DNA from: Allacma fusca
Taxonomy: Eukaryota; Arthropoda; Collembola; Symphypleona; Sminthuridae
Direction: 5' to 3'
Length of the DNA: 64,000 nt
Assembly: GCA_947179485.1 (NCBI GenBank)
Contig: OX359249.1
Coordinates: forward strand, 43,076,250-43,140,249
The notes beneath the pieces were generated by a model. It saw nothing but the letters and a program-made list of their open reading frames with translations, ran no database searches and had not been told where the DNA came from. A program made the translations under genes and the position numbers. Positions 5,818 through 57,208 of this stretch are shown here, in pieces; positions within the stretch are counted from its first letter, which is position 1; each line of letters opens with the position of its first letter.

Positions 5818-6426
5818 CAAAGGTGTCCACCTATCCTATTTATAGGCCTATATATAGGACAAAAATAGGCAGGATGCAAAATCCAAGTAATTATAGGTAG
5901 TAAAATAGGGTGCAGTAATTACCGCTAAAATTAATCCTATATTATATGTAGGAGCTGCAAGAGTTCACTTTTTATTTGGGAACAAGGTAGTAAGTTTGCG
6001 AAGGTAAAAATAGGCATATTTAATAATCTATTGACAAAGATTTAACCTTAAAATAAACCTCAAAAATATTCTTCAAATACGTGACATTTTAGTAATTCGA
6101 CTTTTTTCATGAGTTAGGATTGCACGCACATACATATATGATGTTTAGTTGAAAAAATAAGCCTTTATAGGCTAAAAATAGGTCTTTATAAGCTAAAAAA
6201 TAGTTCTTTATAAGCTAAAAAATAGTTCTTTATAAGCTAAAAAATAGTTCTTTATAAGCTAAAAAATAGGCCTTTATAGGCTAAAATATACATTACAGGA
6301 GTATATATGTAGGCAAATAGGTAGGCAATTTATTTTTGATAAATAATGTAGGTTAATATGTAGGGAAGGTCAAGCTGTAAAAAATATGTAGTATTTTAGG
6401 TAGGCTGAACCTTTTGGACACCTTTG
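5818..6426. mobile_element. hAT-like non-autonomous element, TAGGC word family, 609 bp
   Basis: Ends CAAAGGTGTCC on both sides; perfect 8-bp target duplication ACATTGAG at 5810 to 5817 and 6427 to 6434. Subterminal tracts repeat TATAGGCCTA, TAGGC and AAAATAGG. No coding capacity. A 22-bp tandem repeat lies inside. Confidence 0.92.
6161..6290. repeat. 22-bp tandem repeat, about six copies
   Basis: Units of TTCTTTATAAGCTAAAAAATAG at about 22-bp spacing. The first and last copies carry TAGGCTA in place of TAAGCTA, linking the array to the TAGGC words of its host element. Confidence 0.88.
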
Positions 6427-6433
6427 ACATTGA

Positions 6434-6527
6434 GTAAGTACAGCCGAGAAAAATCGTCAAAGTCTGAAGAAGAGCTGGTCGTGGGCAGAGCTACCAAAGC
6501 CTGTCTTTAACGGCTAGTCCCCGCTTA
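6434..6527. repeat. Right arm of the 96-bp inverted repeat (partner 4091 to 4186)
   Basis: Starts GTAAGTACAGCCGAG and ends TAGTCCCCGCTTAC, the complement of the left arm. It begins at the last base of the target duplication of the 609-bp element. Confidence 0.8.
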
Positions 6528-6530
6528 CGA

Positions 6531-7399
6531 TATTCCCGACCCAGGTTTTTTTGTATTAACTTCAGTGAACAATATTGTTTGCTATTATTTAATATTATCC
6601 ATGTCCTTGACAACAAGCTGTGTGCTGTTGACCGGCCGTTTTGATATGTACCTATATTGTGAATTATGACATATGCATGTAGCTACACTCTGTTCATTAT
6701 TCAGCATTATAACTAAAAAAAATCGGAAATTAACGTTAAAATGACACTTAAATAGCAACGACAGAAACTCTTTTTAAGAAGTTGCTTTTAAAGGAGATGT
6801 GCCCAGGTCTGTGTACGTGCCCAGGTTTTTCCCCTAAAAAAGCAACCTATATGCTTTTACCCATACCTCAAAAAGTGATTTTCTCAGATAACTCTTGAAC
6901 CAAAAATCGTGCTTGGAATGTCAAAGGCTTAAAGTCAATGGGAATGCAAGGCGAATCTCCATGAATTTTTACAATCGGATATCCCTTAAGGTTTGGCATT
7001 CCTTTGCAAAAATAAACAAAAATTGGTCCCAATTTCATAAAAAAATATCCATGGCCTCCGTTCATTTAGCATTGCGAGCTAGAAAAGTGCGTTCCACCCC
7101 TTGGAGCTACATGAAATTTTTCAGGAGGGTGCCTTTAGTAACTAGGACCTTAGAATAAAAATTTGGTACTGTGATCTTTAAGTGATCAGCCCTTAAATAT
7201 AGTTTTCCTTAACAATCATTGTCAATTTGTCAACAACATTTTTAACTTTCTGAACAATAAATATTAAAATTAATAAAAACTAAATTTCATAAATTCTTGC
7301 AATCTAAACGATAAAAATGCATATTCGTCTATTAAAAAAATTATTAAAATCCTAAACTTAATACTATTCAGCTAAGCAGGCGTATCTGCATATTATATG
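6531..7399. other. Spacer, no gene recognised
   Basis: AT-rich. Only a doubled GTGCCCAGGT (about 6798 to 6827) stands out. The short frames near 6868 to 7158 on both strands have no recognisable domain. Confidence 0.35.
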
Positions 7400-7650
7400 C
7401 TGCAATCCAGAGGTGTCTATCCCTCGAAGGATTTCCTTCAAAAAAGGCTTCTTTAAACGAATTAAGCGTTAGCTTTGGCAATTACGAAGGGAGCGGAAGG
7501 AAGGCTGCACGAAGGCCTCTGCGAAGGAGCATGTTAATTTTACAGCCTTCGAACGCCGTTGGAACTAGTAATCCTATTTCTTATATTTTAGATAAAATCC
7601 TTCCGTAACTACAGTACATGTACGTATACGTACACCGTAATATATATACA

Positions 7651-7682
7651 CTAGCAATCAAGCCATCCGCCTCGGCGGATGG
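7651..7682 (-). mobile_element. Helitron 3' terminus candidate
   Basis: Read on the minus strand: a perfect 9-bp-arm hairpin CCATCCGCC/GGCGGATGG, then eight bases, then CTAG followed by T. This is the canonical Helitron 3' end (hairpin, about 10 nt, CTRR, insertion between A and T). The matching 5' TC end, expected at a higher coordinate, was not found. Confidence 0.5.
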
Positions 7683-8317
7683 TATGTCTGGCAGCAATGA
7701 ATTATAATTGTAATAATAATTTGAATGCAACAATATTTTATATACAAATACCCTAGAAGTTCTATTTTTTGCAGTAATTACACCGATTTATTATATAAAA
7801 TACCAAAACAGTTAAATAATCTTAACGTGAAATGGGTTTAACTATCCAATTTGCCTGTAGCCTATTTCAGAAATTTCCTAATGTTAAATAATTACAGTTT
7901 TTCGAACATTTCGTAAATATTTATTTGTAGTAACTTCATTGCTGGAGTGGCTTCATCTGTTGTGACAAACAAAAATCGTATGGAAACTGACAGGGCTTTT
8001 TATAACCCATCAAAAAAATTTAGCTCATCCAATTTATGTTAGTATCGCTATCCCAATTGTGGGTCAATATCGGATCAGATGTTTTTTTAAATTACGTTAG
8101 GATGCCTGTAGGTCGGTTGGCAAAAGGTAAATTTTAGAATTGTTTTTAAATTAATCTGATATTGCGGCTTATGAATCTTTTTAAAAATAATTAAATGTTG
8201 TGATAAATAAAGCTGTATATCGTTCTCTCAATTTTAAAATGTAAAATTTTCATTTCATAATGTCACCATAAATGGGATCTGCAATGAAAGTGGTACTTTT
8301 TAGAATTTAGTCAACGA

Positions 8318-8707
8318 CACGGTTGGCAAAAAACCGGCGTTTATCAATAAAGGTCAAGCCATTGGCAAGAAATGGTAACAACCGATTTTTATTGGACAGT
8401 GGACTTATTTGGATAGTATTAATTATGACCATTTTATACCAACCTGGTCCGGGCGGTTAGAACCGGATTTTAACCAATAATAACCAGACCATTTCTGACC
8501 ACTTGGCAACCCTGTGTTCATGCTTGCGTAATATTAGCCAAGCCGGTGGTATGTTTTGGTTAAAACTGGTTTTTATTGGACATTGGATTTATTTGGATAG
8601 TATTAATTACGACCATTTTATACCAACATAAGCAGTTGGACCAAGCCGGTAAGAACCGGATTTTAACCAATAACGGCCAGGCCATTTCTTGCCACTTGCC
8701 AACCCTG
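8318..8707. mobile_element. hAT-like element, ACCGG/GGTT words, 390 bp, internally duplicated
   Basis: Left end CACGGTTGGCAA, right end complement CAGGGTTGGCAA. Flanks GTCAACGA (8310 to 8317) and GCCAACGA (8708 to 8715) agree at 7 of 8 bases. The interior is a roughly 180-bp unit in two direct copies (about 8346 to 8513 and 8534 to 8707), each ending GCAACCCTG or CCAACCCTG. Nested in the 2.5 kb element. Confidence 0.82.
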
Positions 8708-9382
8708 GCCAACGATATGGTGCTTTTAAAACGGTAAATTAAACTATTTAAGCATACCAAATGTTTGTCAGTCAGTTTTGTTTTGAAATTTCCCTAGTTA
8801 GTATCCATTATGCTGGACAACTTTACTAAAATCATTAGAACGAATTATGTTTAAAATCAAATGAACTATTTTTTAGTATGGCTAAATGAGCCACTCGAGT
8901 GTATGCACGTAAATGTTGGCTACTTTTTGGCGAGTTTGTTCACGTGGGGGTGACACATTCAAATATGATTGTAAAATTGATTTTTTACAAAACATTTAGA
9001 CATATTATGATCTTGATTATTGTGTAATTTGAATTTTGACCACGAAGGGGTAAATTTAAAGGATGCCGATTGACGACTGATCATATTAGCCACTTATACT
9101 AAATATTCAAAAGTTTACATAAAATGCAAGTGGTAGTTAATTCGAATTAACCATATAAATTCCAAGATGCAGCACAGCAAGTTGTTTAGCATTGCGGTGT
9201 TTCTGTTCTCTTTTTTACTTTTTTTATCTTTTGTATTTTGAAATTGCATTATTATTTTTTGACTTGGACAGAATTAAGTTGAACACTTAGTTACTATAAC
9301 TTAAGCCTGTTCCAGTTAACAAAAATAATAAAAGCTAAATTTTTATTTTAAAGAATTTTTTTCCATAAATGAAATAAAAAAA

Positions 9383-9571
9383 ATGGACCGCTATGCTTCA
9401 ACAAGGTATGTACATAAGGACGACAACCATCACTACTACTACGATGAAGCTTTTAGTAAGAAGGATACGTACACTGTTATTCAACTGAAAAACATTTTTC
9501 TGACGGACCTACTTAATGTTATTCCTGAAAAACTTATCTCACAATGGCAGCGTGATACCCGGAGCATGTAA
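9383..9571 (+). CDS. Short exon-like frame inside the 2.5 kb hAT-like element
   Basis: 62 codons from ATG (MDRYASTRY) with H-H-Y-Y-Y and E-K-L-I-S-Q-W-Q-R-D-T near the end. The frame ends over AT|GTAAGC, a good splice donor, so it could be a first coding exon. No domain recognised. It may be a remnant of the element's transposase or a captured exon, or chance. Confidence 0.3.
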   Translation: MDRYASTRYVHKDDNHHYYYDEAFSKKDTYTVIQLKNIFLTDLLNVIPEKLISQWQRDTRSM

Positions 9572-10143
9572 GCATTCTATTCCCTTCACTGTACATTAAT
9601 ACTGATACTCTGCAATAATTGCAGTTAATTGTAAGCTGTTATTAGTTTTTCAGTGGTAAGCATTTTGAATTTTAAAGCTCTGATTTTGTGACTTGTGTTG
9701 AATGAACATGGAAGGAAGGTAACGCATGAAGGGCATTTAAATATTTTTGAAGTCTGAAAGAAGGATTATAGTAGGATTTGAATGAAGGAAGGGCGAAGGA
9801 TGGGTAATTATTCAGAAGGCTTCATTTTACTGAACAATGAAGGAACGGGTAATTGGAAACGGTTCCCCTTCTGAAGGATGAACGAAGGTGATTTCAAACG
9901 GACACCTGCAATCTAAGCAAGCCATAATAATTCCCTCAAACTGAAAGCACCGTCGGGGTCGGGATACGCAACTGATATTGAACAACTAATGCTAACATTG
10001 CTAACCAACAGGCATGGAATGGAAGATATCCAGAGCTTAAGGAATATTTTAGTTTAATATTGTTGATGGTTGAAATAAATAATTTGTTTTCCTGTGTTGT
10101 TAACATTACTGGACGTGAAAATCATTTTTCCCCTTATCATTGG

Positions 10144-11073
10144 CAGAGCTATGCAAAATACTTGGTCTTCGATGCCAAAATACAAAATAAAATACCTGAA
10201 TTAAAATATGGAAAATACAAAATACAAAGTAAAATACCTCAGGTTACATTGCTAAAATACAAATAAAAATACAATACTTGGTAGAAAATTTAAAATACTC
10301 AAATACAAAATACTGTATTTTAAATACAATACTTTTCTTAAAATACCCACCTAATCCTCACTATTTTCGATTTCTAGAACAAACTTTTTAAAACAGTCAC
10401 TTCAAAGACTGCATATAAGACATGTGTAGTAACAAATTGTGTCAACGGTTGCCGAATAGGTCAGTTCATTATAATTATATTTTAAGCCGTTTTGACTGTT
10501 AATGGAGTAACAGATTAATATGAAATTTTTATTTATTAGTAAATAAATGTATTTTCGGAATAATTATTATAAAAAGGGGCTAGTAACTGAAAATTAAATC
10601 AAGTAGGCGTTCGTCTTCGGCGTATCTTAAATATCGTTGTTGAAGAGGCAAAATGGTCTGTGCTGTAAAAACCATGCGCACGTAGACCATTTCGAGTCTT
10701 CAACGACGATGTACAGTATCGAGAATCTGAACATTTTTGATGTAGACAAGGGATTCATTCCAACGTATGTTATTCCAATGTGTAAAATGGAATTTTCACA
10801 GACATTGCACATCGTATAAGCTACATACAGTGTCAAAATCAGAAATCATACCAGCGAAAAGTATTTTGAGCAAAATACTTTATTTGAATTACATTTCATA
10901 TTTCATTGAGAGTAAGTAAATACCAAATACTTTTGTACTTCCTGGCTCTCAAAATACTAAGTACAAAATACTTGCTTACTGCTTACCAACTTTGAAATAC
11001 AAAATACAAAATACTTTGTGGTCTGAAAATACGTATTTTAAAATACTGTATTTGAAAATACTGCATAGCTCTG
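10144..11073. mobile_element. hAT-like element, AAATAC word family, 930 bp
   Basis: Ends CAGAGCTATGCA on both sides; perfect 8-bp target duplication ATCATTGG (10136 to 10143 and 11074 to 11081). Subterminal tracts repeat AAAATACAAAATAC on both flanks. The centre holds an imperfect hairpin (arms about 10634 to 10662 and 10685 to 10712). Confidence 0.93.
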
Positions 11074-11117
11074 ATCATTGGATACCATTGTAATCTGTGC
11101 TTTTGATTCAAAAAGTT

Positions 11118-11694
11118 GGAAATAAATTAATAACTAAAAAAGCTAAAACAGAAGTTGCTTTTGCGCCCTCAAAAGTTAAAAACAAGTTTTCTGGTTGGAT
11201 TTGTCGAAGGAATCAATATTCTGTTACTCAAAATGATGAAAACGCTTGAAACGACGAAAAGCAACGCTACGATGTATTTATAGTCACCATAAAGTAGCCG
11301 AGTAGAAGCAGCATACCTTTGTTTCAGAATAAGGATTGATCTAACTTTATGCATTCCTAATATTCTAAAATACGAAATTCCGCCTTAGTATTTTCAACAT
11401 GTGAGAATTTTTGAATTTCCTGGAATTGCAATAATTGTGTAATCAATGAACAATAAATGCAGCATATTGTGGGATTGCATAAAAATAAGGTATAGTGCTG
11501 CTACTCGGCTACTTTATGGTGACTACAAACTATACACATATCGTAGCGTTGCTTTTCGTCGTTTCAAGCGTTTTCATCATTTTGAGTAACAGAATATTGA
11601 TTCCTTTGACAAATCCAACCAGAGAACTTGTTTTTAACTTTTGAGGGCGCAAAAGCAACTTCTGTTTTAGCTTTTTTAGCTATTAATTTATTCC
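11118..11694. repeat. Long inverted repeat, about 200-bp arms, 171-bp spacer
   Basis: Left arm 11118 to 11317, right arm 11489 to 11694, differing at only a few per cent of sites. Landmarks are GTTGCTTTTGCGCCCTC on the left and GAGGGCGCAAAAGCAAC on the right. A transcript across it would form a long hairpin. It lies just inside the right end of the 7.9 kb composite. Confidence 0.92.
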
Positions 11695-12285
11695 TATCTT
11701 TGCTTATTATTTGTTTATTATTCGGATCTGTACATCGGATCTTGAGTGCTCAACTGTTGTATCTTCAGTTGTTATAGCAACATCATTTTATATTCATTAA
11801 ATTCTGTGTTTCATTGTATGGCGGGATTGTCTCATTAGTGTCGGGATTATCGTGAGCGGGATTATATACATCGGTCAAACTGACAGCGGGATACTGTTCG
11901 CGGGAATAATTCCAGCGGGATTAGCTCTGAACTCAGAATATTCTACTGTATCCGCTGTGTCTGATTTTGCATATTCAACAATCAGTCCTATCCTAATAAA
12001 AAACGACCTAGAAGGAACAAACTCATCGTTGAAGAACCCTCATATTAGCCAAAGTTGTATATTTTGCATTACAATGGAACTGCCATCTGTGATTAACCCT
12101 TGGCACACAAAATCTAATGGTTTTACAATGAACAAATGTTTTTCTTTTCAAATTGGAAAACATGTGTTGCGTGTGGCATTTTTACTTCGAAGCCAATGCG
12201 TCATCTGGTTTCATTATGTGTCACAATATGTTAACCACAGAAGTAGGGAAACAAACCTAACCTACGGGATGCACTTTCGACAACG

Positions 12286-15014
12286 CAGGGCTGGAGTATT
12301 CGAAAAATATGGATACGATTCTGATTAAGATTAACCCTAACGGATTCCAATCCCAATTCAGATGTATTTGTTTCAAAAAACGAAAATTCAAATCCAATTT
12401 ATTCGAATATTTTCTATGAATTCCGATATAATTAAAATACTTTATTTATTAAATAGTATACCTGGAGTTACTAGTCACGAAAAACATCGTAACATTTAAA
12501 CCCGAAAGTATATAAATTCGGCAATTACGAATGAAAAGAAGCCAGTGAATATGTCAGACCATTTTATAAAGGCATAACTGCTTAATCTACATAAGTACCA
12601 TAACCGTATATAACTTGTTGATTCACTTTGTTTTTCAGGGATACTCTAGTACTAAAAACGTGAGCTGCATGCTTTTTCCCCTGACAAAATTAGACCCCTT
12701 TTTATCAATTGAGAAAATTACTGACAAATGAATTCAGTGCTTACAGATTGTAGCAAATTCATTTCAATTCAATTCAATTCAATTTATTCATGTCATTCGG
12801 GTCTCGCCCATAACACGTTAAAAATTTCTTAATTAGTGGCACGTAATGGTAAACATTCTTTTATGAAATTTACTAAGCTGTACAGATGTTCTGTATCCTG
12901 AACTTTGAACAGATCATACAAATTCTCTATCCTTATATTAGCTATATAATTTGCCAGGAATTTTTCCCTAAGGGGAATTAGATAAGTACACTTCACAAAA
13001 AAATGGTATGCGTTATTTTCTTCATTTAGAGAACAAAATTTACAGTTCTCATGGTCAAAATTAATTTTAGATTTCTTATAATATATAGTATGGTGGTTCA
13101 CTCTTAGTTGGGCAACTAGTCTTTTTACGCTTAGAGGGATATTAGCCCTTAGGTAGTTCGAGGCATATGCGTCTGTTTTGTAAAATTTAAAATCACTTGA
13201 GTATGATGACTTCAATATTCTTTGGACGTCTTTTTCTTCGCATTGGAGCTGAACTGTTTTCAAGATATCATCAAGGTTTTCTAAGAATATATCTGCGGAC
13301 TGTCTTTTCCAGATTGAAATTAGTCCAAAGTTTAAAAACAGCGTTTTTGTTTGGTGGACCCAATTGTGTTTCATATTTACTAATTTCTGTTTTGACAATT
13401 CAAAGTCTATCGTAACACTGTCTTACGTATCTACGTTCGTCCATACTTAATATTTTCACTAGTAGCAACACAGTCAGTTTTACAATTTGTACGGTGGCGT
13501 TTGTTTTTCCCGTCTCAGCTCTGATCCAGTATCTTGGTGTAGATTGGGGTAGCCATAGGAGTCGCTTAAGGAAGTATTGTTGTATAATCTCCACCTCCTC
13601 CAGTGCAGGCTCCATATTGGTGATGCGTACTGGTAAATCGGCAAAATGGTGGCATTTAGGAGTTTTGCCGTACTATCCCATGAGTCCATAGAAGCTTCAT
13701 TCAATGTTGATATTAGAGCATTTGAGGCTACGTTTGCTTTTGATTTTATATGATGGAAGTGCTTCTTAAATGTTCCAGTCGATTGAAAAATGACCCCTAG
13801 GTATGTGTATTCTTTAGCCTTTTGTATTTCCTGTCCCTCAAGGAACCATTTGAGCTTTTTCGGAATAATTCCCCTGGGGGAAAAGACAACTACGTTAGTT
13901 TTCAACAGGTTTATTTCAAGACTCATTTCTTGGCAGTATTTGCTTAATATATCTATTTTCTTTTGAAGTCCATTTTTGGTGTCTGCCGGTATACATGTAT
14001 CTTCTGCAAAGAGAAGTTGGTCAATTTTGTTGTTTACTCCCATGTTTACTGGACTTGCTCCATTTTCTTCCATATATTTATCAATATCGCTGATGTAAAT
14101 AGAGAAGAGTAGTGGGCTTAAAATTTCCCCTTGAAGTACCCCCATGGTAACTGGGATGGGTTTTGTAAGACCTTCCTCACATCTTACAATTAGATTGGCG
14201 TTGTCGTACAGGCTCCTGAGGATGTTTATGATTTTGGCACTGATTCCTAGCTTATTCATTTTTGCCCACAAAATTTCCTGCCGAATGGAATCGAATGCTC
14301 GTTTGAAATCCACAAATAGGACATGAAGCTTGGTGTTTCGTGACAGTCGAGATTGTATGAGTGCATTGAGACAAAAAATCTGGTCTTGACAACCCCGTTT
14401 CTTCCTGAAGCCTGCCTGCGATTCAGGCAGGATGTTTTTTTCTTCACACCATTTGTAGAGCCTATTTTGAATTACTGTTGTGAATAATTTCGACATTGTG
14501 TTGATTAGAGCGATACCTCTGTAGTTGATAGGATGAGATTCGTCTCCTTTTTTGAATAGAGTCGTCAGTTCAATTTCGGACTATTTTCTGGGTGTTTCTT
14601 CTGTAGTCATTGTATCATTAAATAATTTGAGTATTTCATTTATTGTACTTGGGTGAATAGCACATTCATTTCCAGAAAAAAATTAGTATCGTTGCTCGGC
14701 GTCATTTTATGGAGTCAAACGTAATCCTAAATTTTGTATTCCAATGATTAATTTAAAAAAGTTATGTAATGGCTGACTGAAAACTTCCTTTGATGTTTGA
14801 ATTTACGAGATAAGCTTCAAAATGTCACGGATTTTTCGGATATCTAAGCATTGGATACAGTATTCAAACATATTTTGAATACTAATTCTAATTCAGATAT
14901 TTCTTTTCGATTCAATATAGATTTAAATACTTGAAAAAATATATTTAAAAATACCACAAAATAGAAATGAAATACCGATTCCAATTCTAATTCCGATTCG
15001 AATGACTGGCCCTG
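12286..15014. mobile_element. hAT-like element, GATTCCAATTC words, split by a LINE
   Basis: Left end CAGGGCTGGAG, right end complement CAGGGCCAGTC; perfect 8-bp target duplication CGACAACG (12278 to 12285 and 15015 to 15022). TTCCAATTC, ATTCGAAT and GATTCTGATT words occur next to both ends. The LINE at 12.76 to 14.69 kb inserted inside, so the hAT-like element is older. Confidence 0.9.
12761..14690 (-). mobile_element. LINE copy 2, reverse transcriptase and C-terminal zinc-finger region
   Basis: Same clade as the LINE at the left edge: W-C-E-E-K-N-I-L-P-E-S-Q, G-F-R-K-K-R-G-C, K-R-A-F-D-S-I, V-L-Q-G-E-I-L-S-P-L-L-F, and F-A-E-D where F-A-D-D is expected, so a catalytic Asp is replaced by Glu. 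The RT frame is 14496 to 13480. The 3' part (13398 to 12829) is in another frame and holds C-K-F-C with Y-H-F-F-V-K-C, the usual C-terminal zinc motif. Upstream of 14496 the frame continues with a TAG where copy 1 has Trp (S-E-I-E-L context), then stops near 14690: a 5' truncation. The 3' end has AATAAA and an (ATTGA)n tail at 12761 to 12790. Inactive. Confidence 0.9.
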
Positions 15015-15022
15015 CGACAACG

Positions 15023-15572: not shown

Positions 15573-15580
15573 GTGGTAAC

Positions 15581-16835
15581 CAGAGCTGCGCTCAAGTTAC
15601 GACAAGTATCAAGTCAGGTCAAGTTCGGAGCAAGTTCGGGATCGTCAGCGTTTCTACTTGGTTGAATCGGGTCAAGTTCAAGTATTTGCTGGATCCGAAC
15701 TTGGAATTTCAAGTCGGTTCTGTTACAAGTGCAAGTCCACAGAATTGACTTGAACTAAGGATCAAGTTCAAGTTCGGGTCTGGGCATGGATTTTACTTGA
15801 ACCCGAACTTGAGCTTTCAAGTACCAATTCAAGTATCCTAGTTCCAACTTTTGCTTCCTTTGTGCGTTCTTACTCGGTTTTTCGCACTTCTGCAGCACGC
15901 ATTCTAGAAACTAGTGATGCCCATGGTCTGGTTTGATCCAGATTTTATGAAACTGTTCTGATCCAGTCGTTCGGGCCAGACCAGACTAAGGAGCATGCTC
16001 CGGATTATGGTCCAGAAAACCATTGAGAGCAATTAACTAATTACATTTTATCCCGTCAAATTCTTCTTTTATTTCCGGAAATGTCAGTTTTAACTCAAAT
16101 TTTTATTTTGCGTACGTTTGAGACCATGGACCTGTGGTCAGGTCTGGTCTGGTCCTGAAACTGGACCAATTGTATCTGGTGTGGTCCAAGTGTTGAATCA
16201 GAGCGGTACGGTCTGATTAGGCCATACAAATCTGGGACCAGACCGGACCATACCAATAGCGGACCATTATAAATGGTCCGGACCAGACCATTGACATGCC
16301 CAATAGAAACCATGGCTGCAGAGATGTGCACAGAAGCTGGAGCTCACTTTCGTTTGGAGTTACTGTTGTGCATTCTTTAAATCGTCGTGCTTAAAACTAT
16401 TCTTCTAGTTTTTCATTATTTTTGAAAAACTATTGAAGTAAATTGTCCGGTAAGACTGTAACACGAGGAAAAACCATGAGTGAACCCGAATCTGAATTTA
16501 ATAAAGACGACGGAAATTGAAAATCTTAGTTCCAACCGTTGGAATGTTTTTGCTACTTCATACTACAAAGTTGTAAGGTTCAAGTACTTGAAATCCAAGT
16601 TCGGGTTCAAGTCAATTCCAAGTTCGGTTCGCAAGATTGTTTGTTCCCGAAATTCAAGTATCAGATCAAGTTCGGGTTTAGGAAAGATTACTTGCAAGAG
16701 TTGACTTGGTATGACAAGTAATTCCTGGGAGCCGAAACGCCAAGTTTGGGTACTGACAAATATCTACTTGAAAGTTCAAGTGCAGGTCAAGTTCAAGTTC
16801 GGATCCTCAAAATACTTGACCCGAACGCAGCTCTG
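15581..16835. mobile_element. hAT-like element, CAAGTTC word family, 1.26 kb
   Basis: Ends CAGAGCTGCG on both sides; perfect 8-bp target duplication GTGGTAAC (15573 to 15580 and 16836 to 16843). CAAGTTC, GTTCGGG and their complements fill both flanks. The centre has a short ATG frame (16476 onward, M-S-E-P-E-S-E-F-N-K) that ends quickly, perhaps a transposase remnant. Contains the nested 391-bp element. Confidence 0.94.
15912..16302. mobile_element. hAT-like element, CTGGTCC word family, 391 bp, nested
   Basis: Left end TAGTGATGCCCATGG; right end complement TGGGCATGTCAATGG. Flanks CTAGAAAC and ATAGAAAC agree at 7 of 8 bases. Words TCTGGTCC and GGACCAGACC run throughout. Same end type as the element at 46931. 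Confidence 0.82.
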
Positions 16836-17519: not shown

Positions 17520-18053
17520 CAGAGATGCGCTACCTTCGAAGGTTAGCCTTCCAAGAAGCCTTCCTTGAAGGCGGAAAGGTAACTTTCTTAACGTTGCAGA
17601 AGGAATGGAAGGATGGCGATACTTTTTCTTGAAGGCTGAAGGAAGCCTTCACAAAAACTAGCAATGAAGGATTGTGAAGGAAGGGTTCCTAAATGTTAGC
17701 CCTCTAAGACCGTGAAGGCCTCCAGGTACACGAAATATCTATAACGTGAAAGCATATGCAACGAAGGTTTGCTGCTAGCGCAACAAAACACCCAATTCGT
17801 GAACTCACAGCTGACATTGTCTTCACTGAACTGAATTCTGCTGGTGGAAAACGTTTTTAAGCGGGTTGTAGTTTAAACTTGAAGGAAGGCTAGTTTTAGA
17901 TGAAGGCAAAAATGAGTATGTATTTTGGAAGGAAGGGCGAAGGAAGGCAGATTTTTTAGAGGGCTTCATTCCAGGACATGTTGAAGGGGAAATTTTTACT
18001 GAATTTTCGCCTTCGAAGGCTTGAAGGAAGGCTATTTCCTTTGCGCATCTCTG
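17520..18053. mobile_element. hAT-like element, GAAGG word family, 534 bp, no target duplication
   Basis: Ends CAGAGATGCGC on both sides, with GAAGGAAGG and CCTTCG tracts between. The flanks GCTTTACC and GTTGAGAC do not match, so one end may have been rearranged. The end sequence is shared with the element at 40195, whose words are different. Confidence 0.72.
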
Positions 18054-26875: not shown

Positions 26876-27276
26876 CAGGGGTCGGATTTATGTAGGAAGA
26901 CGGGAAGAATCTTCCCAGGGAAAAATATTTTTCACCAGGGAAATTTTCATACGGAGTTGCAAACAGGGATTTTCAAATCTGTTGACCTTTTTTTCAGCAG
27001 GGATTTTCGAAATTGTTGAGGTGTTTCACTGGAAATGATTTTTGCCAACAGGGATTTTTGAAATTGTTGAGGTGATTTACGAAAATATTTTTGTGTCAGC
27101 AGTGATTGTCAAATTCGTTGACCTTTTTTCAGTAGGGATTTTTGAATTTGTTGGGGTATAATACGAAAATTGTTTTGTCAACAGGGAGTTTTAAACTTGC
27201 TTCGAACAGGGACATCATGACCAGCAGGGAAATTGAAAAAAATCTTCCAGGGAGATTTACAAAAATCCGACCTCTG
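26876..27276. mobile_element. hAT-like element, CAGGGGTCGGATTT ends, 401 bp
   Basis: Left end CAGGGGTCGGATTTATGTA, right end complement CAGAGGTCGGATTTTTGTA; perfect 8-bp target duplication CCGGCAAC (26868 to 26875 and 27277 to 27284). The interior repeats CAGGGATTTTTGAAATTGTT. Inserted in the Gypsy tail. Confidence 0.94.
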
Positions 27277-30704: not shown

Positions 30705-30979
30705 CAGGGGTCGGATTTTTGTAAATCTCCCTGAAAGATTTTTTCATTTTCCCTGCTGGTAATGGTGGCCCTGTCGGAAGCAAGTTTAAAACTCCCTGTC
30801 GAAAAAACAATTTTCGTAATACACCCCGCCCCCCCCCCAACGAATTCAAAAATCCCTGCCAAAAAAAGGTCAACAGATTTAAAAATCCCTGTTTGCAATT
30901 CCGTTTGAAAATTTTCCCGCTGAAAAATTTTTTTCCCTGGGAAGGTTCTTCCCGTCTTCCTACATAAATCCGACCCTTG
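30705..30979. mobile_element. hAT-like element, CAGGGGTCGGATTT ends, 275 bp
   Basis: Same family as the element at 26876 but in the opposite internal orientation: the words here are AAAATCCCTG. Left end CAGGGGTCGG, right end complement CAAGGGTCGG; perfect target duplication AGCTATAC (30697 to 30704 and 30980 to 30987). Confidence 0.93.
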
Positions 30980-37500: not shown

Positions 37501-37653
37501 CATTGATTGCACTATTGTTAACATTAACGAATAAACATTTTTTACTACAATCTAAAGCATTTTCACGTAAATATAGTAGCTTGGCGTAAGTACCGCCCCG
37601 CAAGAACTGATACTTGGTAATAATCATATCGAGAATGGGTATGTCTATTAAAA

Positions 37654-40194: not shown

Positions 40195-41125
40195 CAGAGA
40201 TGCGCCCGTTACGTTACTTTTACCCAACAATAACGGAATAACGCCGTTTTTTAACGTAACGGCCTATATTTGGAGCAGGCAATAACGTAACGGTAACGGA
40301 ACTAGGGTGTGCTAAACACTTATCCGAATAACTATAGCGTTCCAGCGTGTGTAAACAGAAAACGATATTGTAACGTAACGCAACGCTATCAAATAAATAT
40401 ACTTATGCATGTACATATTTTTTTTGCATTATGCATTGACATCTATTATTGGCTTTGCTTGGAGTAACTGTGCATGCAAATAAACGGGTGATATACATAT
40501 TAAAACTTTAGTTGGATGTGGACACCCTGATCCCTGAGCATCATTATGTACGTTATTGAAAACATGGTAAATTTCAATAGGAAGTTTTTGACCCTTTATT
40601 TTGCTCAATCCACACGCTTTTGCTAAAAAAACGATGTGTGATCGGCTTACGAATTAAGTTTTGGTTTTAACGTTGAGTTAGTAGATAAGAACTAACCATG
40701 GAGAATACTGTTGCTAGTAAAAGGAGAAAAATGAATTTGAAAAAGGACAAATGTTGAGATTACCCCACCGGGTAGTCGGGATGCGGATCACATTGCAGGT
40801 GAATCAAGAACTACACAGAAACTGTAAATTGCCTTTTCGCTACATTTTTTGCATACCAGGTACGTCTGGCAACACTAGTTGTTTGACATTTTAGTTTATA
40901 ACGAGCGGACAATAATAGTAACGATAACGGAAAGTAACGGCTATTTTATATTTTTAAATGGTAACGAAAATTAACTCTGGAGTATTACCGTTGTCTTGTA
41001 GTAACGGAACGGTAACGCGGAATTTTTCATACGATATTTAGTAATATAATGATAATTAACGACAATTTTAAAACCTATCGTAATAGTGTAACGTAACGTA
41101 ACGAAACTGTGGATGCGCATCTCTG
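40195..41125. mobile_element. hAT-like element, GTAACG word family, 931 bp
   Basis: Ends CAGAGATGCGC on both sides; flanks TTCACATT (40187 to 40194) and TTCACGTT (41126 to 41133) agree at 7 of 8. AACGTAACG and GTAACGG words fill both flanks. In the centre an ATG frame at 40698 (M-E-N-T-V-A-S-K-R-R-K-M) soon stops, possibly the start of a lost transposase. Inserted at the 5' edge of the DUF4806-like gene. Confidence 0.92.
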
Positions 41126-43942: not shown

Positions 43943-46685
43943 TCATTCACCGATATGAGCATAATTATTTAAAAATTTGCAGAAGTACAAAGTATTATTT
44001 TTCTCAATTTTTAGGGCAATATCTTTCAATTCTGTTACATTTAGCAGTTCCTTCGTTGCTGCCGTTGCAACGTAGACATGCTCTAAATTAAAGGTAGCTC
44101 TTACAGTATGCAATTCCCCCAAAGCAAATACTGTCCCACAACTGGAATCTTTTCCAAAAGCGATTATCTCAACAATAGTGGAGTCGCTGGTGAAGACGTA
44201 AAAACTTTCGCGTCGAACGCTTTTGGTATACAATTTTGAATGATAAACAACTCTGCCTGGAGAGACAAATTTCTGAAAAAACCGGACGACACAAGATCCA
44301 TGATGTCCTAGACATGCAATATTAAGAATTAGTGTCTCATTTGTATACATATAATGAATATCTGTAATAATTAATCATATTATTGTTAGCATTTACTGTG
44401 TAAAACGTCCTCTGAAGACTGTAATCTATCTCTGCTCACTTCAAAACCCAGTTGCGCCAAGGAAGCATCACATATACCATGGTTCGTAGCATCCGTTTTC
44501 CCTCCAAATTTATTGACAACTAAATTAGGCATATTTCGTATACTAATTTGGGACAAAACCGATTGTGAGTTGGTTACATATTTACGCAATATCATATTAT
44601 ACGATTCAAAACAAGACATAGAATGATGTTGTAACGATCCATACAATTTTGCAAAAGCACATAAATGTCTGAGTAAATGAACATTGAACCGTTCGCTACA
44701 AGTACCATACAGAGAGCGTATTTGACTGCTAAAATCTTCGAGGCAGAGGCCGCCCCTCTCGATATCATCAATTGAAGCGTTAGCTTTGACCATCTGACTA
44801 ATTCCATCCACCAAGAGAAGCCAATGTTGATAATATTGTGAGGGTAATACATCCTGTAGTAAAACGGGTGAGTAGTACAGCAGCCACATATTGAACTCAT
44901 GCGCTTTAAAAAATTTCAGAAACATAAAACTTCGTGGAACTCGACTGACTCTATATGGGGGCTTTATGCATTCTAAAGCATGATTTAGACCAGTCCGTTG
45001 GGCATCATTAAGGTAAAATGGTTTTCCGTGATTTTCCGTGTTTATCCAAATTTGAGCAAAATGTTTGGCTACTCCTAAGTCGACACAGTGTAGTATGTCC
45101 GGTGGGCACCCTAGATCATTAATTGAAAGGGTTACAGTTTCACTAAGCTATTTTGTCATATTCCAAATTATAACTAATTAGTTAATCTGTATGATATCAA
45201 AGTAGGGAAGATGATACAACGGAGATACGCTAACAATTCCTTTTTGCTTGAATTCCACAAGGCCAGAATTAACAAAGCTTGTAAGAATGTTTCTAACGTC
45301 ATCATTAGTTCGGGCTGTTGGTAGCGTAGGCGTATGTGAAAAATATGGACCAGGTTGGTAATGATAGCAATAATTACATCCGTACTCAGAATTGAACTGC
45401 ATCATACCCATAACGGGAGGACGGGCAATAGAGTCACATTATCTTGGAAAGCAGTACACGTGTAACTACTAATTCTCCATTACTACGTCGCCAAGTTACG
45501 CCACGGGAGTACATGTCCTTTAAATCTTCAACTATTGGTTTCAAAAACGAAGCAAAATTCGGTTTAGAACCTGTCTTCCCAGTCCAAACACCAAACATAA
45601 GCATAAATGCTTTCTTATGTTTTTCTGACAATCCGTTGACGTAACCAATTATTGGCCAGAGGGAGGAATTGCTGCTTTTAAACAAGGGGGCGCCGTCAGT
45701 GTTCAAAGTCAGTAACAAATCTCTGCTTCCACATTGCGCCGCCTGAAGCACACAATTATCCCTGTTACTGTAGTGTTGCCGTTGTACTAGGTCAAAAAAT
45801 GTTGGCAGCGCCATCTGTAAGATGTATTTGGTCGAAAACACAGCAAAATGGTCACAGTTTTGGCTAAACAAAATTTCACAGCAGGTTTGCCTCTGCAGAA
45901 TCTTGTATGAAGATGCATGGTGTAAGAATTTACAAATGGAGCAATTCCAGTAATATGTTATAGAACCTTCGTCAGGGGATAGTGCTGAAGACCAGTCTGT
46001 TAAACATCGAGGCACATTATTAACAAATCCCTGAAGTGACACCTTTCGCAACAATTTAATGATATCATCCACGCATGCATCTGTAAGATTATGTTTTGCT
46101 GTTAATGCTGCCAAATGAAGATTAATTAATTGAGGATTGGAGTCGTCTTCATCCGACAAAATTTCTTTGCAAGAGTTGTTTTGAAATATTTCTTGTCTAG
46201 GTTCTGTAATGATATCGGGTTCGAAAACTTCAACGGGTGCGTCGGGAACTGTTTCAGGCAAATTTTGATGTTGGGTCCAAGTAACAGAGAGATTATTTAA
46301 TTTCACAAGTCCGGATTCAGATGGTTGCACCAATAACCTTGCTTGATCTTGTTCCGGAGGGATGTTCGCAGCGTTTGTCGGATCTTTAGCCGCAAGGCCT
46401 GGGTTTTCTATGTACAATATAATAATGGGCTTACACATGGCTAGGTACATCTCATTTTTGGTGTCCAGATGTATCAAAAAGTTGTAATTAATCCTGCTAA
46501 TACTCTCCACATTAATTACTAACAAATCACTAACCATAAAAGTTAACTCAGTCGTGCTCTAAAATTTACCTAAATCTATTGAACTATTTAATATCAAATC
46601 TCTATCTTATTCACGTTAACAAACCTTCCAGTCGTCGCCGTTTGACAATTTTCTTCTGGATGCGATACTTAGTTGCCTGTGACAT
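43943..46685 (-). pseudogene. Tnp2 (CACTA/EnSpm-like) transposase gene, probably broken
   Basis: Candidate exon 1 46685 to 46625 (MSQATKYRIQKK) ends AAG|GTTTGT. A 217-nt intron joins it in frame to 46407. The large exon to about 45434 contains L-N-T-D-G-A-P-L-F-K-S-S and W-P-I-I-G-Y, the core of animal Tnp2-like transposases. Next, in a shifted frame, come D-S-I-A-R-P and N-S-E-Y-G-C-N-Y-C-Y-H, then V-S-P-L-Y-H-L-P-Y-F-D-I. After a TAA (45180) and a TAG (45150), D-I-L-H-C-V-D-L-G and L-L-Y-Y-S-P-V-L-L follow to 44397. A 35-nt GT-AG intron (44396 to 44362) joins in frame to the C-terminal exon ending at 43943. One frameshift near 45440 and two stops suggest a pseudogene, unless an unusual intron removes them. 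Superfamily assignment is from motif memory. Confidence 0.75.
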
Positions 46686-46930: not shown

Positions 46931-47429
46931 TAGTGATGTGATTGTTCCGGTCATTTCCAAGTTTTCTGGTCTAGTCTGGTCCAGGAGTAAGACCATTCCA
47001 AACTGTATGTTCCACACTGTCGGGTCAAACAACATTGTTCAATGGATTTTCAAGAGCAGAAATATATGACCTGGTCCATCTGTCCACTAATTGGAACAAA
47101 CAATAGTGGTGAATTATTTCAAAAAAATATTTCATCAAACAACATTTAATACAAATATTAGCTAATTAATATGCAGGTATAGCACTGTTAAAATTTGCTC
47201 TTATGGTTTTCCTGTTTGTGACACCTTTTAAAACGAAATTGGTAATCAAAAACCCGTCGAGAATATAATTGGTTCCGACCAACAATTCAAATGGTCAGAT
47301 AAAAATTTGTGGAACAGAATCACTGATCTAGCATTCATTTGGTACGGATCATTTTCAAGTGGGCTGAGAATTGGAACAGACGAGACAAGACCAACATTTT
47401 TGGCCCGGACCGGAACATACTCATCACTA
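46931..47429. mobile_element. hAT-like element, TAGTGATG ends, 499 bp
   Basis: Both ends TAGTGATG; TTCCGGTC lies near each end. Perfect 8-bp target duplication GCACATGG (46923 to 46930 and 47430 to 47437). Sits between the divergent Tnp2 and BEN-like genes, so it may alter their shared upstream region. Confidence 0.93.
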
Positions 47430-47604
47430 GCACATGGTGCAGTGTATGTTACAACGGACAGCAGCATTACACCAGCAAGACACCACATCCCTCGTGTGAA
47501 CTGAAAACTAACGGATCATAGCGCCATATTGACAAGGCTCCTGGCCAAACATTTCAGTCTCAGGCTTTAATAATTGTTTCCAGGAGTAATTACTAATTGC
47601 AAAA

Positions 47605-51405: not shown

Positions 51406-51995
51406 ACTAGGATCAGGCGCGTAGCCAGGAATTGGCCAGGGGGGGGGGCAACATTAATTAGAACGTACATATGTAAACTGACACATTCTATGGGAAATCC
51501 AATTCACGAATGTAAAACGCATCAAATTTTGCAAACTGAATTTCATATTTTAAAATTCTCCACGTTTTACGATTCCATCAAATTTGAATGATTTTGGACC
51601 AGATTTTCAATTGGGCTTGATCCGATTTCGGAGTATTTCGAGACCTGGGTTCGCTTCTATCGTTTCAGCTCGTGCTTAACCTACTGTTCCTGTGACACAC
51701 GTCTTTGCTTCGAAAATAAACTGCGGATATCAGGCGTGCTTGACCTTTTCATAATGAAGAATTAAATACAATTCACTAATTTAATAATTATATCCAGCTT
51801 AAAAATTCCCTCGAAGCGATGCGTGTAAGTTACAGAAGCTAAAAGCTTTTAATATGAAAATATTTAAAGCCACTGTTACCATGCTTTTGTTGCCGTTGAA
51901 GTCAAATCGACGAGGCAAAGGTCAAAGTGAAATCGGGATTTTGCAATGCATTCAAATCACCCGCTAAGCAAGGATGAACACAATAAAAATATACT

Positions 51996-53569
51996 CTAGA
52001 ATCACCCAAAACGTCTCTTTATTGAATGGTTTATTACCCATCTATTACCCATTTACTTCCCGTCAAAAGTTGACCCATCCATAATCGCGAAAATCGTATC
52101 GAAATGCTTTTCCAATTCGATAGAAATTTATTGATCTAGAAATCCTTTGCTCTCGCAATGGACAAACATTGCGATACGATTTTCGCGCGTATGGATGGGT
52201 CAATTAATGACGGGAGGAGCCGTGGGCATAGATGGGCGATTTTCTCCCCCTCTGCCTCTTTGTGCGAGGGATGGAATATAGCCTGCTCGCACTCTCCCTC
52301 GTCATCAATCGTGCGACACGTTACGGGTTGTCCTCGTCCTTGCCCTCGTGAGGGGCTACTTTAAAATACACCCCTCTCCCTCGCACTCATGAGGGCCCTC
52401 GTTATTTTATATTACACGTAAATAACCCCCCTACAATTTCCTACAATACCTGTGCCTTCAAATAACTTTTTCGCGGACACTTGGTTAAAATATGACAACT
52501 TCAATATGTGTCGACATTCCCCCCAGTTCTGAACGTACGGAACTTTTGGATAGCTTAGAAAGTTTATAAAATTTCCTACAACCTAGAGTTCAAAACAAAT
52601 TTTAAAAAATTGTTGGTGAAATAAACTACTGTATTCAAAATTGTGCCATTCATTGGTTCAGGTTTTACACAGGTATTTGGGTACAGGTACATATTAAGTT
52701 TCGTGGTTGACATAATTGTAAAAGGTATAAAAAACTTGAAAATTTACAATGTTTTTTCGATTTTGTCCTGAAAATAACGTAAAAAACAAGTTTAAAATTC
52801 TAATTCATCGGTAAAAACTGTCTATCTTCCTTATATTTTAATTGTCGGCAAAATAGAAAACATTCAGTAGTCAAACTACAATATTTTGTTATAAAAGACA
52901 TTTTTGATAGTTTTTGACAATAATTTTTCATTATAATCGATTCCGTAGCTCAGAAAATTACTATTATTGATCAAAGCTGTTTTCTACGTCTCCGGTTAAT
53001 AAAGATTAGTCACAAATAGGTTCCATAACCTCAGACCAGTAGTATTAAATAGTAGGGTCTGAAACAGCATTAATCAAATATAAAGCCCAGGTGCCCTTGT
53101 TTACAAATGACCATGTCTCCCCGACATCCTAAAATGAAATTGTTTTATGGAGTTTAGTATGAGAAATTTTAACCTAAACAAGAGGACCTTTTACTTTTAA
53201 AAATTAAAACTGGGATTTTTGCGCAGGGCCATAAACCATGTACCTAAGACGTTATGAAGTTGGTCTTGCTACAGAACAATATATGCATGATTTTCGCATA
53301 ACGATTAAGGTAAGAGAATGTCATGAGGGCTTACATGTGTACTCTGCCTCCCCCTCTTTCGTTCACATCCTATTCATAGGTCCTCTCCCTCATGTTCATG
53401 AGGGCACCTAAAATCAACGTGTACTCGCCATCACCCTCGCAGTTTGTGAGGGCGAGGACGAGGGAGAGGGCGAGGCATCCCTCAATCCCTCGTGAGGGTG
53501 CCCATGTATGGCCGTGGGTAATAAATCATTCACACGAAACATGCAAACTTCATGGGTGATTCTAGAGTT
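51996..53569. repeat. Interrupted hairpin inside the 2.37 kb element
   Basis: Left arm about 51996 to 52106 (TCTAGAATCACCC, TTGACCCATCCATA, GCGAAAATCGTATCG); right arm 52168 to 52226 plus 53511 to 53569 (CGATACGATTTTCGCG, TATGGATGGGTCAA, GGGTGATTCTAGA). The 1284-bp CCCTCG element split the right arm. Confidence 0.82.
52227..53510. mobile_element. hAT-like element, CCCTCG word family, 1.28 kb, nested
   Basis: Left end CATAGATGGGC, right end complement CATACATGGGC; perfect 8-bp target duplication GCCGTGGG (52219 to 52226 and 53511 to 53518). CCCTCGCCCTC and GAGGGCGAGG words fill both flanks. Confidence 0.94.
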
Positions 53570-53788
53570 ATGCTGTTTATACACAGATATTTACATGGAA
53601 TACTGCATATGTTGAGTTTGGAAGTGATTTTTTTACAAATAAAAAAAATTGTACTGTCAAATCACTAAAAAGGTTTGCATGTCTCGGTATGGACTGATTT
53701 ATTTTAACCTTTTTGAGTGATTTGAGAGTATTTTATTTCGAATGGGGGGGGGGCAATTGCCCCCCCTGGCTACGCGCCTGACTAGGAT

Positions 53789-54622: not shown

Positions 54623-54835
54623 CATTGATGGGCACCCTCACGAGGTATGAGTTCTTCCCTCGCCCTCATCCCTCGCCCTCGCCCTCAATTTTTGAGGGAT
54701 GAGGGCGAGTTCCCATCATAAAAGAAGGGCCTCAGCAAATGAGGGCGAGGCATAGCAAAATGTACGTACTAAAACGAGGGCGAGGGTGAGTACTACAAGC
54801 TAGCCCTCACGAAGTTCGAACAGCAGTATTAAATC
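54623..54835. mobile_element. Truncated CCCTCG-family element
   Basis: Begins CATTGATGGGCACCCTCACG, matching the ends of the 52227 element, and continues with CCCTCGCCCTC and GAGGGCGAG words. No right terminus or target duplication found. Confidence 0.7.
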
Positions 54836-55695
54836 CCGCGAGATAATTCTCACATTTCCTCTTTACTGTACCTTTTTCCATAAACGAGTCTGCAGAATTA
54901 GTTCAAGACCTTAAGAATTAGCTAAAGGTCTCAAGAATTAAGTGAAGGTTTGAAGGTCTTAACTGGGTGATACTGAACTAAGGGACTGGATGGGATAACT
55001 ATTTGAGGCATTTGAACATTACAATTTGTGAAACACCTGTACAGTACACGATACGGCTATAAATTAAAATATTCTAAGAACTATTTTTCCAAACTGCAGA
55101 CGATGTAAAATGAACTTCCACCATCCTGGGAATATTCACATACCCCTATGCATGTATGTATATTACTGTGATCAGAAATGTCTTTTCGGTTAAAATTTGA
55201 ACCCATACGGTAATTGTTTTGTACACCATAAAACTACAAACAACAATATTTGGGGGACCCGTATGGAGGATGTATATTGGTTTCTACTCGAGCCATTTTT
55301 GGCTGATCGTTGCAAACTGCAGACAATAGTGATGTAGAATAAAATGAGTATAAAATTCAGCTACATCACCCATTTAAATTTTGACTGATCCATTACCATC
55401 AGATTTTTACTTTAGGAGTTTGTACTCCAAAAGAAAATAGTACTTCTGCCCACCCGTCAGTGACGCATATGTAAATTTATTTAATATTATTGTTTACATA
55501 GAAATTTATTTTCGTAGGAGTGATAAATGATATCACCTCATGTGAATGAAATGAAATTGATTTGACTGTTTTTGCCATTAAAATATACGCGAAGAAGCGA
55601 ATAACCAGACATTCACATTTGTAACTTTTCCTTGGCTGCGCTTTCATGCATTTGGATGGATATTCTGAATATATGCTATAGTAATCCAATTTTGG
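54836..55695. other. Spacer, no gene recognised
   Basis: AT-rich. Contains AAGAATTAG and GAAGGT(T/C)T doublets near 54900 to 54960 only. Confidence 0.3.
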
Positions 55696-55699
55696 TGCC

Positions 55700-55866
55700 A
55701 TGAAAATGCCCAAAATGCCCAACTTGCCCTGCCCAAAATACCCAAAATCAGGGCATTTTCAAAAGCTGACCACATGCCCAGTTTTTGGGCATGTGGGCAG
55801 CCATTTCGGGCATTTTCAGCTGGGCGGGCAAATACTGCAGGGCATTTTCAATCGACATACCCTAGT
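55700..55866. repeat. GCATTTTC word tract, second copy
   Basis: GGGCATTTTC, AATGCCC and TGCCCA words, ending CGACATACCCTAG. Related by its words to the tract at 1.8 kb, but the end sequence is different. Left end not defined. Confidence 0.6.
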
Positions 55867-56343
55867 TGAAATTGATAATACAGTAATATTCTTACAATTA
55901 GTAATAATCTTAAGAATTCCGCAGCGGTATTCTCCAAAGTCCTTACATACAGGTGAGATATTGTTATGTACATACATACATATGCACTCACAAAATCACA
56001 CTGGAAATGGGAATACAAATGTGGAACAAATATTCACAATAATTGTTAATACTTATGAATCCCTCCGAGAAAAATTAACAGATGAGAGTTAGAAGATGTT
56101 GATGAAGATCGTAAACACAAATGTACCTATTGTGAATAAAGGATAGAGTACAGAAATAAGAGGCAATGTGCCTACTGTTAAGGCGCAGTCCATACCTATT
56201 ACTGTAAACCAGCTGCAATAATTTATTACAGCCGGAATCAAAAGAGACATGTATCTATAGGAATGATTGTAATGCAGGTAAAGTCTACGGTGCAACTGAT
56301 ACAGACTCTAAGGAGCACATTGTAAATACAATACACTTGCACG

Positions 56344-57208
56344 CAAAGATGCTAGCCTATCCTACATGTAGGCCTACTTGTAGGCCTATTTATAGGGTGC
56401 GAGCTATTTTCAGAAAAAATTATAGGCAAAATAGGGTGCTCTGGTTTTCGCAGACAAAATGCCTATAAAATAGGAAATGCACGCCTGCATACACGTGGTC
56501 ATATAGGCATATATGTAGGCAGCACGAGAATACGCTTGTATGAAGGCATATATATAGGATATACATATACATAAATATTGTCACATTATGGAAGTCTTAT
56601 CTCAATGCAAACCAAACCGATTTTCAAACGTTGGAATATCAGGCTACTGCAGGGACATCTCAGATTTGCCATTCAAAATAATATCCATAACTAAGTACAT
56701 ATAGGTACATATATTGTATGTGATTGCTCGATGGCTTATACTTACTGTAACGGGGAATACGACCGATCAATACGAGGTTTTACATAATGGATGAGTAACA
56801 TTAATTTTGAGGAAGTACTCACAATCAGTTTGTTTAAAAATATGATGCATATGATAGTAACAAACAATTGCAAGTGTTTGCGAATAATTGTTGCATATGA
56901 GGGATAGCCTAAATTTTGTCTAAACTAATGTTATATGTCGAAAATAAATTTGCTAAAATAAAAACAGCAAAATGTAATTATGAATTTCAATAAAAATCTA
57001 ATTTAATTCTACAGTATAGGATCCCATGTAGGAAGGGGCTAACACTTTCCGTTATCCTATATAGGGAGAAATGTAGGCAGCGGAAAATGCCTACTTGTAG
57101 GCAAGGATATAGGCCCAGCAATTGTACAAATAGGGGAGAAGGAAGGCCCCTCCTAAACTAGATATATAGGTAGGATGTAGGTTAGGCAAAATCAGTTTAG
57201 CATCTTTG
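56344..57208. mobile_element. hAT-like element, TAGGC word family, 865 bp
   Basis: Ends CAAAGATGCTA on both sides; perfect 8-bp target duplication CTTGCACG (56336 to 56343 and 57209 to 57216). TGTAGGCC, TATAGGCA and CCTATAAAATAGG words fill both flanks. Same family as the element at 5818. Confidence 0.94.

Follow-up and report, generated by a model that had tools for sequence, protein, structure and literature searches.

A 64,000-nucleotide stretch of the genome of the collembolan Allacma fusca (GCA_947179485.1, contig OX359249.1, positions 43,076,250 to 43,140,249; hereafter 'the window') carries 15 non-autonomous hAT-like elements, designated E1 through E15, whose ends appear to be built to a common two-part plan. 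We consider it probable that each end combines a short terminal inverted repeat (TIR) with an adjoining array of about 200 base pairs (bp), in which a short word recurs and is read by the BED domain of the transposase. At least eight lineages can be told apart by their subterminal word. Two properties are noteworthy beyond ordinary hAT membership: different words obey a common placement grammar, and tips and words combine freely. The window itself has a G+C content of 37.5% and is dense in mobile elements, including reverse transcriptases and a DIRS-type tyrosine recombinase.

The elements were recognized by their flanking target-site duplications (TSDs) and inverted tips. A scan for exact duplications that enclose tips with at least 10 of 12 matching positions returns 11 pairs at a duplication length of 8 in the window, versus 0 to 3 in six Markov-1 shuffles. 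At other lengths the real window gives 35 pairs (length 6), 8 (length 7), 1 (length 9) and 0 (length 10), with the abundance at short lengths expected because short duplications are commoner by chance. Three of the 11 pairs were dropped as not hAT, namely 10300-11054 (within the words of E3), 41566-41716 (a fold-back) and 61999-62227 (a DIRS repeat). Weaker pairs were put down to chance except where the tip was hAT-like, as for E2, E9, E10, E12 and similar cases, and the census was completed with elements that have a 7/8 duplication or shorter or damaged tips. The resulting set has an exact 8-bp TSD in 11 elements and a 7/8 match in three (E2, E9, E15), and the TSD is absent from E6. Three elements are nested within others: E2 within E14, E15 within E5, and E12 within E11. 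The original prediction of about 13 hAT-like elements with mostly perfect duplications holds well, as evident by the 13 that we recover from it (counting the nested TAGTGATG element E15), among which the duplication is exact in 10, 7/8 in E9 and E15, and lacking in E6. All ten start strings that it listed occur in the window, and seven of them also have an exact inverted counterpart there. Two elements, E2 and E14, are new to the list.

These are non-autonomous members of the hAT superfamily, ordinary in kind and real as observed. Short TIR tips of hAT type are seen across the set, with the right tip of E14 incomplete and those of E2 and E15 imperfect. Could some elements instead belong to another superfamily that generates 8-bp duplications, such as P element, Merlin or a Zisupton-like group? 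Such duplications are not unique to hAT, and the tips CATAGATGGGC, CAGGCGCGTAGCC and CACGGTTGGC are less typical of it. However, most tips in the window are CARAGNTG-like, CAGGG or TAGTGATG, which are typical of hAT. Moreover, TIRs, subterminal repeats (STRs) and 8-bp TSDs are common defining features of hAT elements (PMC4890040), and we judge a different affiliation for some elements to be improbable.

The words were scored as the best 5- to 7-mer over the outermost 200 bp, with the two ends pooled and the TIR excluded, and compared with 400 random pairs of non-element segments, a control that still held other word tracts and a minisatellite. Ten of the 15 elements (E1, E3, E5, E6, E7, E9, E12, E13, E14, E15) exceed all 400 controls. 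E8 and E10 are equalled by 3/400, which brings the elements with subterminal repeats at this level or better to 12/15. The claim that most elements carry word tracts therefore stands for these, although not for E4 and E11 of the predicted list; controls reach the score of E4 in 16/400 cases, that of E11 in 68/400, and that of the added E2 in 11/400. Words found with a complete element are TAGG (E1, E13), GAAGG (E6 and the 2.5-kb E14), GTAACG (E9), AAAATAC (E3), CAAGT (E5), CAGGGA (E7, E8), CGAGGG (E12) and GACCA together with GGTCC or GGAACA (E15, E10, respectively). A ninth word, GGGCATTTT, forms two tracts, neither in a complete element. For the measurements that follow, words were picked from enriched k-mers, and several were trimmed or moved manually (TAGG, CAAGT, GAAGG, TAACG, GGAAC, GAGGG, GGTCC).

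The arrays are confined to the ends. Across 11 elements, the number of words per 25 bp is 0.91 to 1.91 within 200 bp of the tip, 0.39 to 0.44 at 200 to 250 bp, and 0 to 0.17 beyond, against a mean across the whole window of 0.07. One may ask whether the arrays are simply unrelated satellite DNA that transposons have captured. A 39-bp minisatellite (5489-5674; 4.8 copies, 97% matches) does lie about 150 bp from E1, and some clusters of GAAGG or GAGGG occur outside elements. Most dense clusters of the tested words nevertheless coincide with element ends, and the first word lies no more than 24 bp from the tip at 19/22 ends. We therefore regard capture of satellite DNA as highly implausible.

Despite the inverted TIRs, the majority direction of the words is alike at both ends in 10/14 elements. 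This count takes all 14 elements with words, because a mirrored element shows no pooled strand bias and a count restricted to strand-biased elements would be circular. Automatically chosen 5-mers yield nine same, four opposite and one tie, where the 5-mer of E4 was taken from its list and that of E2 is not its top word. With either word set, 0/20,000 random strand assignments match the observed agreement. Taken singly with 5-letter words, six elements show a pooled strand bias at p < 0.05. For E1 and E13 the outcome depends on the word, with TAGG biased (p = 0.012 and 0.036) and ATAGG not (p = 0.27 and 0.12).

In E1, E5, E6, E9 and E13, though not in E3 and E7, the outermost word is flipped relative to the bulk. 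A palindrome score over bp 9 to 38, taken at the better end of 11 elements, averages 5.41 versus 3.77 (sd 0.32) for interior windows of the same ends, a value reached in 0/20,000 draws (a post hoc comparison). Individual elements with p ≤ 0.03 are E1, E6 and E13 at the left end, where the palindrome ACCTTCGAAGGT adjoins the TIR of E6, and E3, E7 and E15 at the right end; the left end of E14 gives 0.07. A palindrome at the tip of E11 was discarded as a poly-G artefact, and no strong one was found singly in E2, E4, E5, E8, E9, E10 or E12.

The distances from tip to first word are given in the table for the 11 elements measured. An offset of 12 to 13 bp at one tip paired with 21 to 22 bp at the other occurs in 5/11 elements with four different words, where rotating the words gives a mean of 0.14 elements and 0/100,000 trials yield as many (again post hoc). 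With one element per word family the proportion is 4/8. The right-end offset of 22 bp is common to three different words (E1, E6, E9; P = 0.001, post hoc), and that of E14 becomes 22 when the two bases missing relative to the tip used in the scan are counted. Helical phasing of the words, which had also been proposed, is not borne out, as 10 elements with 388 same-strand and 575 total spacings give no signal at 10, 10.5 or 11 bp (p = 0.48 to 1.0). The spacings are broad and show no period between 8 and 13 bp.

These measurements bear on an alternative in which the words are neutral, having been amplified from short motifs close to the ends by local slippage and conversion, and play no part in binding. 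Slippage would likewise yield one direction, and tandem arrays are present inside two elements. One is a 51-bp array in E7; the other is a 22-bp array in the interior of E1 (6152-6290) with units that partly contain TAGG, as if words had grown into a minisatellite. However, neutral expansion sits poorly with a density that drops by 200 to 250 bp at both ends in elements ranging from 391 to 2103 bp, with a right-end offset that agrees among three words, and with spacings that are spread out rather than periodic. It seems unlikely that the arrays arose in this manner.

Which of the two parts of an end marks descent was evaluated by aligning ends from the tip, excluding the first 12 bp, and scoring each pair against placements of its two ends out of register. 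In-register homology is found for E7/E8 and E10/E15 and, at both ends, for E6/E14 and E1/E13; for these pairs no shifted placement scores as high, except for the left ends of E10 and E15 (5%). The pairs with the same TIR and different words, E6/E9 and E1/E14, are absent from the 22 best-scoring end pairs. A blastn comparison among the elements gives a strong match for E7/E8, short matches for E6/E14 and E1/E13, and weak ones otherwise. Because same-word ends are homologous in register and same-TIR ends with different words are not, the sequence comparison identifies the word, rather than the TIR, as the mark of lineage, with the TIR core recurring across unrelated word lineages.

The two parts come apart, as had been noted, and they do so in both directions. 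The same CAGAGATGCGC ends are indeed followed by GTAACG words in the element at 40195 and by GAAGG words in that at 17520. Conversely, the inner TIR differs within two word lineages and is alike at both ends of each element, with GATGCGC in E6 versus GGTGTC in E14, and GGTGTCC in E1 versus GATGCTA in E13. All four combinations of the cores GGTGTC and GATGC with the words TAGG and GAAGG are present (E1, E13, E14, E6), and these cannot be produced by a single tree without convergence or exchange, bearing in mind that the combinations rest on four elements and some four informative positions in the TIR. The original prediction thus stands as to hAT-like elements with word arrays and the separation of TIR from word, fails as to phasing, and needs correction in that the word is the lineage mark.

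There is about an even chance that no exchange is involved and that the short TIR is convergent or ancestral, with hAT catalytic cores being suited by only a few tip variants. This account is compatible with bipartite ends and opposes only the step of modular exchange. GGTGTCC and GATGCGC differ at about four positions, goldfish Tgf2 has a GGTGT core with yet another word (PMC4890040), and the pairs with the same TIR and different words have no other in-register homology. Against it may be set that E6 and E9 agree at all four variable positions, as do E1 and the right end of E14 (the left end of E14 differs at the last), and that each element has its variant at both ends.

We return to the preferred explanation, that of bipartite hAT ends. 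The short TIR would be read and cut by the catalytic core of the transposase, and the word array of about 200 bp next to it would be recognised by N-terminal BED zinc fingers in the transposase multimer. In most families the words keep one direction from end to end of the element. Several families have the outermost word of one end flipped, often so that it forms a palindrome next to the TIR, and at the other end their first word lies about 10 bp further in. Word polarity and offset may in this way mark left versus right, so that one end of each kind is paired, as proposed for Hermes. The sequence itself shows the elements, their duplications, the arrays with their extent, direction and offsets, and the four combinations of TIR core and word. 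From these we infer that the words serve as BED sites, each recognised by a transposase of its own, and that the modules reading tip and word change separately. Binding of the words by transposase is what published results on Hermes, Herves and Tgf2 most naturally suggest. As was proposed at the outset, the transposases concerned may be related but diverged, and the arrays may evolve quickly.

Several observations weigh against this explanation. The majority word directions are opposite at the two ends of E2, E10, E12 and E15; no convincing array is present in E2, E4 or E11; E5, E9, E10 and E12 are among the elements with no strong tip palindrome of their own; and the palindrome of E7 is not composed of its word. 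The 12/22 offsets are not shown by E3, E5, E7, E10, E14 (as measured) or E15. In addition, both the palindrome window and the offset rule were spotted in the data ahead of any test, which makes the corresponding P values post hoc, and the rotation null ignores the possibility that words simply start where the TIR stops. The preference of Hermes for T2 and A7 within its TSD (PMC8721813) appears here as no more than a weak trend (13/28 positions, p = 0.066, with one version of each imperfect duplication used). A tblastn search of the window with Hermes turned up no hAT transposase (best E = 6.9 and 9.3), and transposase scans with Hermes and hAT C-terminal peptides confirmed no relative in viral and prokaryote collections, as expected of collections without animals. 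Finally, the right-end STRs of Hermes made no contact with the BED domain, and right-like STRs placed on one left end of a construct with two left ends brought no rescue, such that polarity alone makes no right end in that element (PMC10368747). The polarity-marking model is consequently held with reservation. These Hermes results, along with the four elements of opposite direction, slightly weaken the case both for bipartite ends and for the exchange of modules described below.

A search of viral contigs with four end patterns gave 88 loci, none with six or more words near the tip and eight with an opposite tip. They were taken as chance, the best duplication being 6/8 with three words (L072, L084).

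A further step is that the catalytic tip and the BED word array are exchangeable modules of a two-part address. Lineages would keep their word and swap the tip, or keep the tip and swap the word, through recombination between transposases and ends, and the word-independent grammar would be kept throughout, with its first word about 12 bp in at one end and 22 bp at the other, its single direction and its palindrome on one side. One genome might then hold many mutually blind systems built on one plan. We offer this proposal tentatively and think it rather less likely to be right than wrong.

Coordinates of the hAT-like elements and one-ended word tracts in the window. Ends are given as tip sequences; first-word offsets are in bp from the left/right tip.
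Feature	Coordinates	Strand	Ends	TSD	Word	First word	Remarks
E1	5818..6426		CAAAGGTGTCC	ACATTGAG	TAGG	12/22	
E14	7408..9905		CAGAGGTGTC left; GGACAC right, lacking 5 nt	CTGCAATC, exact, 7400-7407 and 9906-9913, directly abutting the shortened right tip	GAAGG	18/20	interrupted by E2
E2	8318..8707		CACGGTTGGC/CAGGGTTGGC	GTCAACGA/GCCAACGA (7/8)	ACCGG, not above control		inside E14
E3	10144..11073		CAGAGCTATGCA	ATCATTGG	AAAATAC	13/12	
E4	12286..15014		CAGGGC (6 bp)	CGACAACG	CGATTC, weak, not above control		
E5	15581..16835		CAGAGCTGCG	GTGGTAAC	CAAGT(T)	12/17	E15 inside
E15	15912..16302		TAGTGATG left; right imperfect	CTAGAAAC/ATAGAAAC	TGGTCC/GACCA	97/18	inside E5
E6	17520..18053		CAGAGATGCGC	absent	GAAGG	13/22	
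E7	26876..27276		CAGGGGTCGG	CCGGCAAC	CAGGGA	40/24	
E8	30705..30979			AGCTATAC	CAGGGA		E7 family, reversed orientation
E9	40195..41125		CAGAGATGCGC	TTCACATT/TTCACGTT	GTAACG	12/22	
E10	46931..47429		TAGTGATG	GCACATGG	GGAACA + GACCA	13/13	in-register kin of E15
E11	51414..53780		CAGGCGCGTAGCCAGG (16 bp)	ACTAGGAT	no array		E12 inside
E12	52227..53510		CATAGATGGGC/CATACATGGGC	GCCGTGGG	CGAGGG	21/12	inside E11
E13	56344..57208		CAAAGATGCTA	CTTGCACG	TAGG	12/22	
CGAGGG tract, one-ended	54623..54804	+	CATTGATGGGCACCCTCACGAGG		CGAGGG		tip resembles E12 right end; partner end searched, none found
GGGCATTTT tract, one-ended	1773..1883	-	CAGGGTTGGCC at 1883		GGGCATTTT		partner end searched, none found

Besides the tabulated tract, a second run of GGGCATTTT at 55706-55860 has no clear tip or duplication. 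At the edge of the window (63907-64000), a CAGAGCTGCG tip identical to that of E5 is followed by 84 bp that contain no CAAGT words in the style of E5. No partner end for this tip was found, and any element there would run beyond its edge.

Other features surround the hAT-like elements. A Glyco_transf_49 gene (1944-3191, minus strand; profile positions 1-272 of 329) has its end next to the GGGCATTTT tract at 1773-1883. Reverse transcriptase open reading frames (ORFs; RVT_1) lie at 158-1648 (minus strand) and, inside E4, at 13480-14580 (minus strand). Long ORFs at 34149-37511 (minus strand) resemble, judging from their translation, a fragmented BEL/Pao retrotransposon polyprotein. A DIRS-like element at 57493-62281 combines a tyrosine-recombinase ORF (PF00589), long inverted repeats and a long ORF that by its reading resembles reverse transcriptase. 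An ORF at 45434-46558 (minus strand) shows weak similarity to Transposase_21 (tnp2; E = 8.4e-6; 25.6 bits, where the cut-off is 28.6), and two ORFs downstream of it (43943-45147) have no Pfam match. Fold-backs are found at 11112-11701 (173-bp arms) and 41533-41749 (71-bp arms), the latter containing a 151-bp core flanked by the palindromic 8-mer CAACGTTG.

The STRs of hAT elements are currently treated as family-specific and haphazardly placed. If the word-independent layout is true, it would show the way in which hAT transposase multimers read an end and separate left from right, whatever the word, and it could be checked in any hAT-rich genome. If tips and words are indeed modules, the word, in place of the TIR, could be used to assign small hAT elements to their transposases, and pairs of BED domain and word would form a natural series on changes in DNA-binding specificity.

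A close parallel is provided by the housefly element Hermes (PMC10368747; PDB 8edg, 8eb5). Its BED domain reads AAG(T/C), and each end carries many short words, with a quasi-palindrome formed by STR1 and STR2 next to one TIR, within bp 11 to 27 of the left end. STRs 2 to 7 of the left end are antisense and STRs 1 to 5 of the right end are sense. On the assumption, which itself weakens the comparison, that in the paper an end is always read from its tip inward, Hermes has words in one direction with the outermost site flipped, which is the layout of E1, E5, E6, E9 and E13. Hermes constructs with symmetrised left ends are inactive, and it was proposed that binding begins at the left end, after which the right end is captured via its TIR. 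Unlike Hermes with its single word, the window holds at least eight others, and the 12/22 offset does not appear in the available Hermes text.

The fish elements Tgf2 and Tol2 share the TIR core CAGAGGTGT with E14 and nearly with E1, and the Tgf2 word AAGTACTT begins about 11 bp in (PMC4890040). The left probe of Tgf2, CAGAGGTGTAAAAGTACTT, has a GGTGT core with the word AAGTA 11 bp in, as counted by eye, and the two ends carry 17 and 18 STR copies. The word differs from those in the window, and the Tgf2 repeats are called haphazardly present, a description that does not fit the first-word positions shared here between several families.

Herves of Anopheles gambiae has a transposase-bound motif, CG/AATTCAT, repeated at both ends (PMC3143072). 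Herves is one element with one motif, and the few CGATTC words of E4 are not above control. At the Kat1 locus of Kluyveromyces lactis, AATTCA/TGAATT occurs six times between the TIRs with polarity that differs between the ends (PMC4763223), although Kat1 is a single domesticated hAT locus, unlike the elements of the window. Neither a shared offset rule nor an exchange between TIR core and word was found in the titles and abstract openings of the open-licence literature searched. The diversity of words is as such not new, because the Herves authors already state that each hAT transposase has a different motif and that specificity is secured in this way; what is new is their combination with the tips and their geometry.

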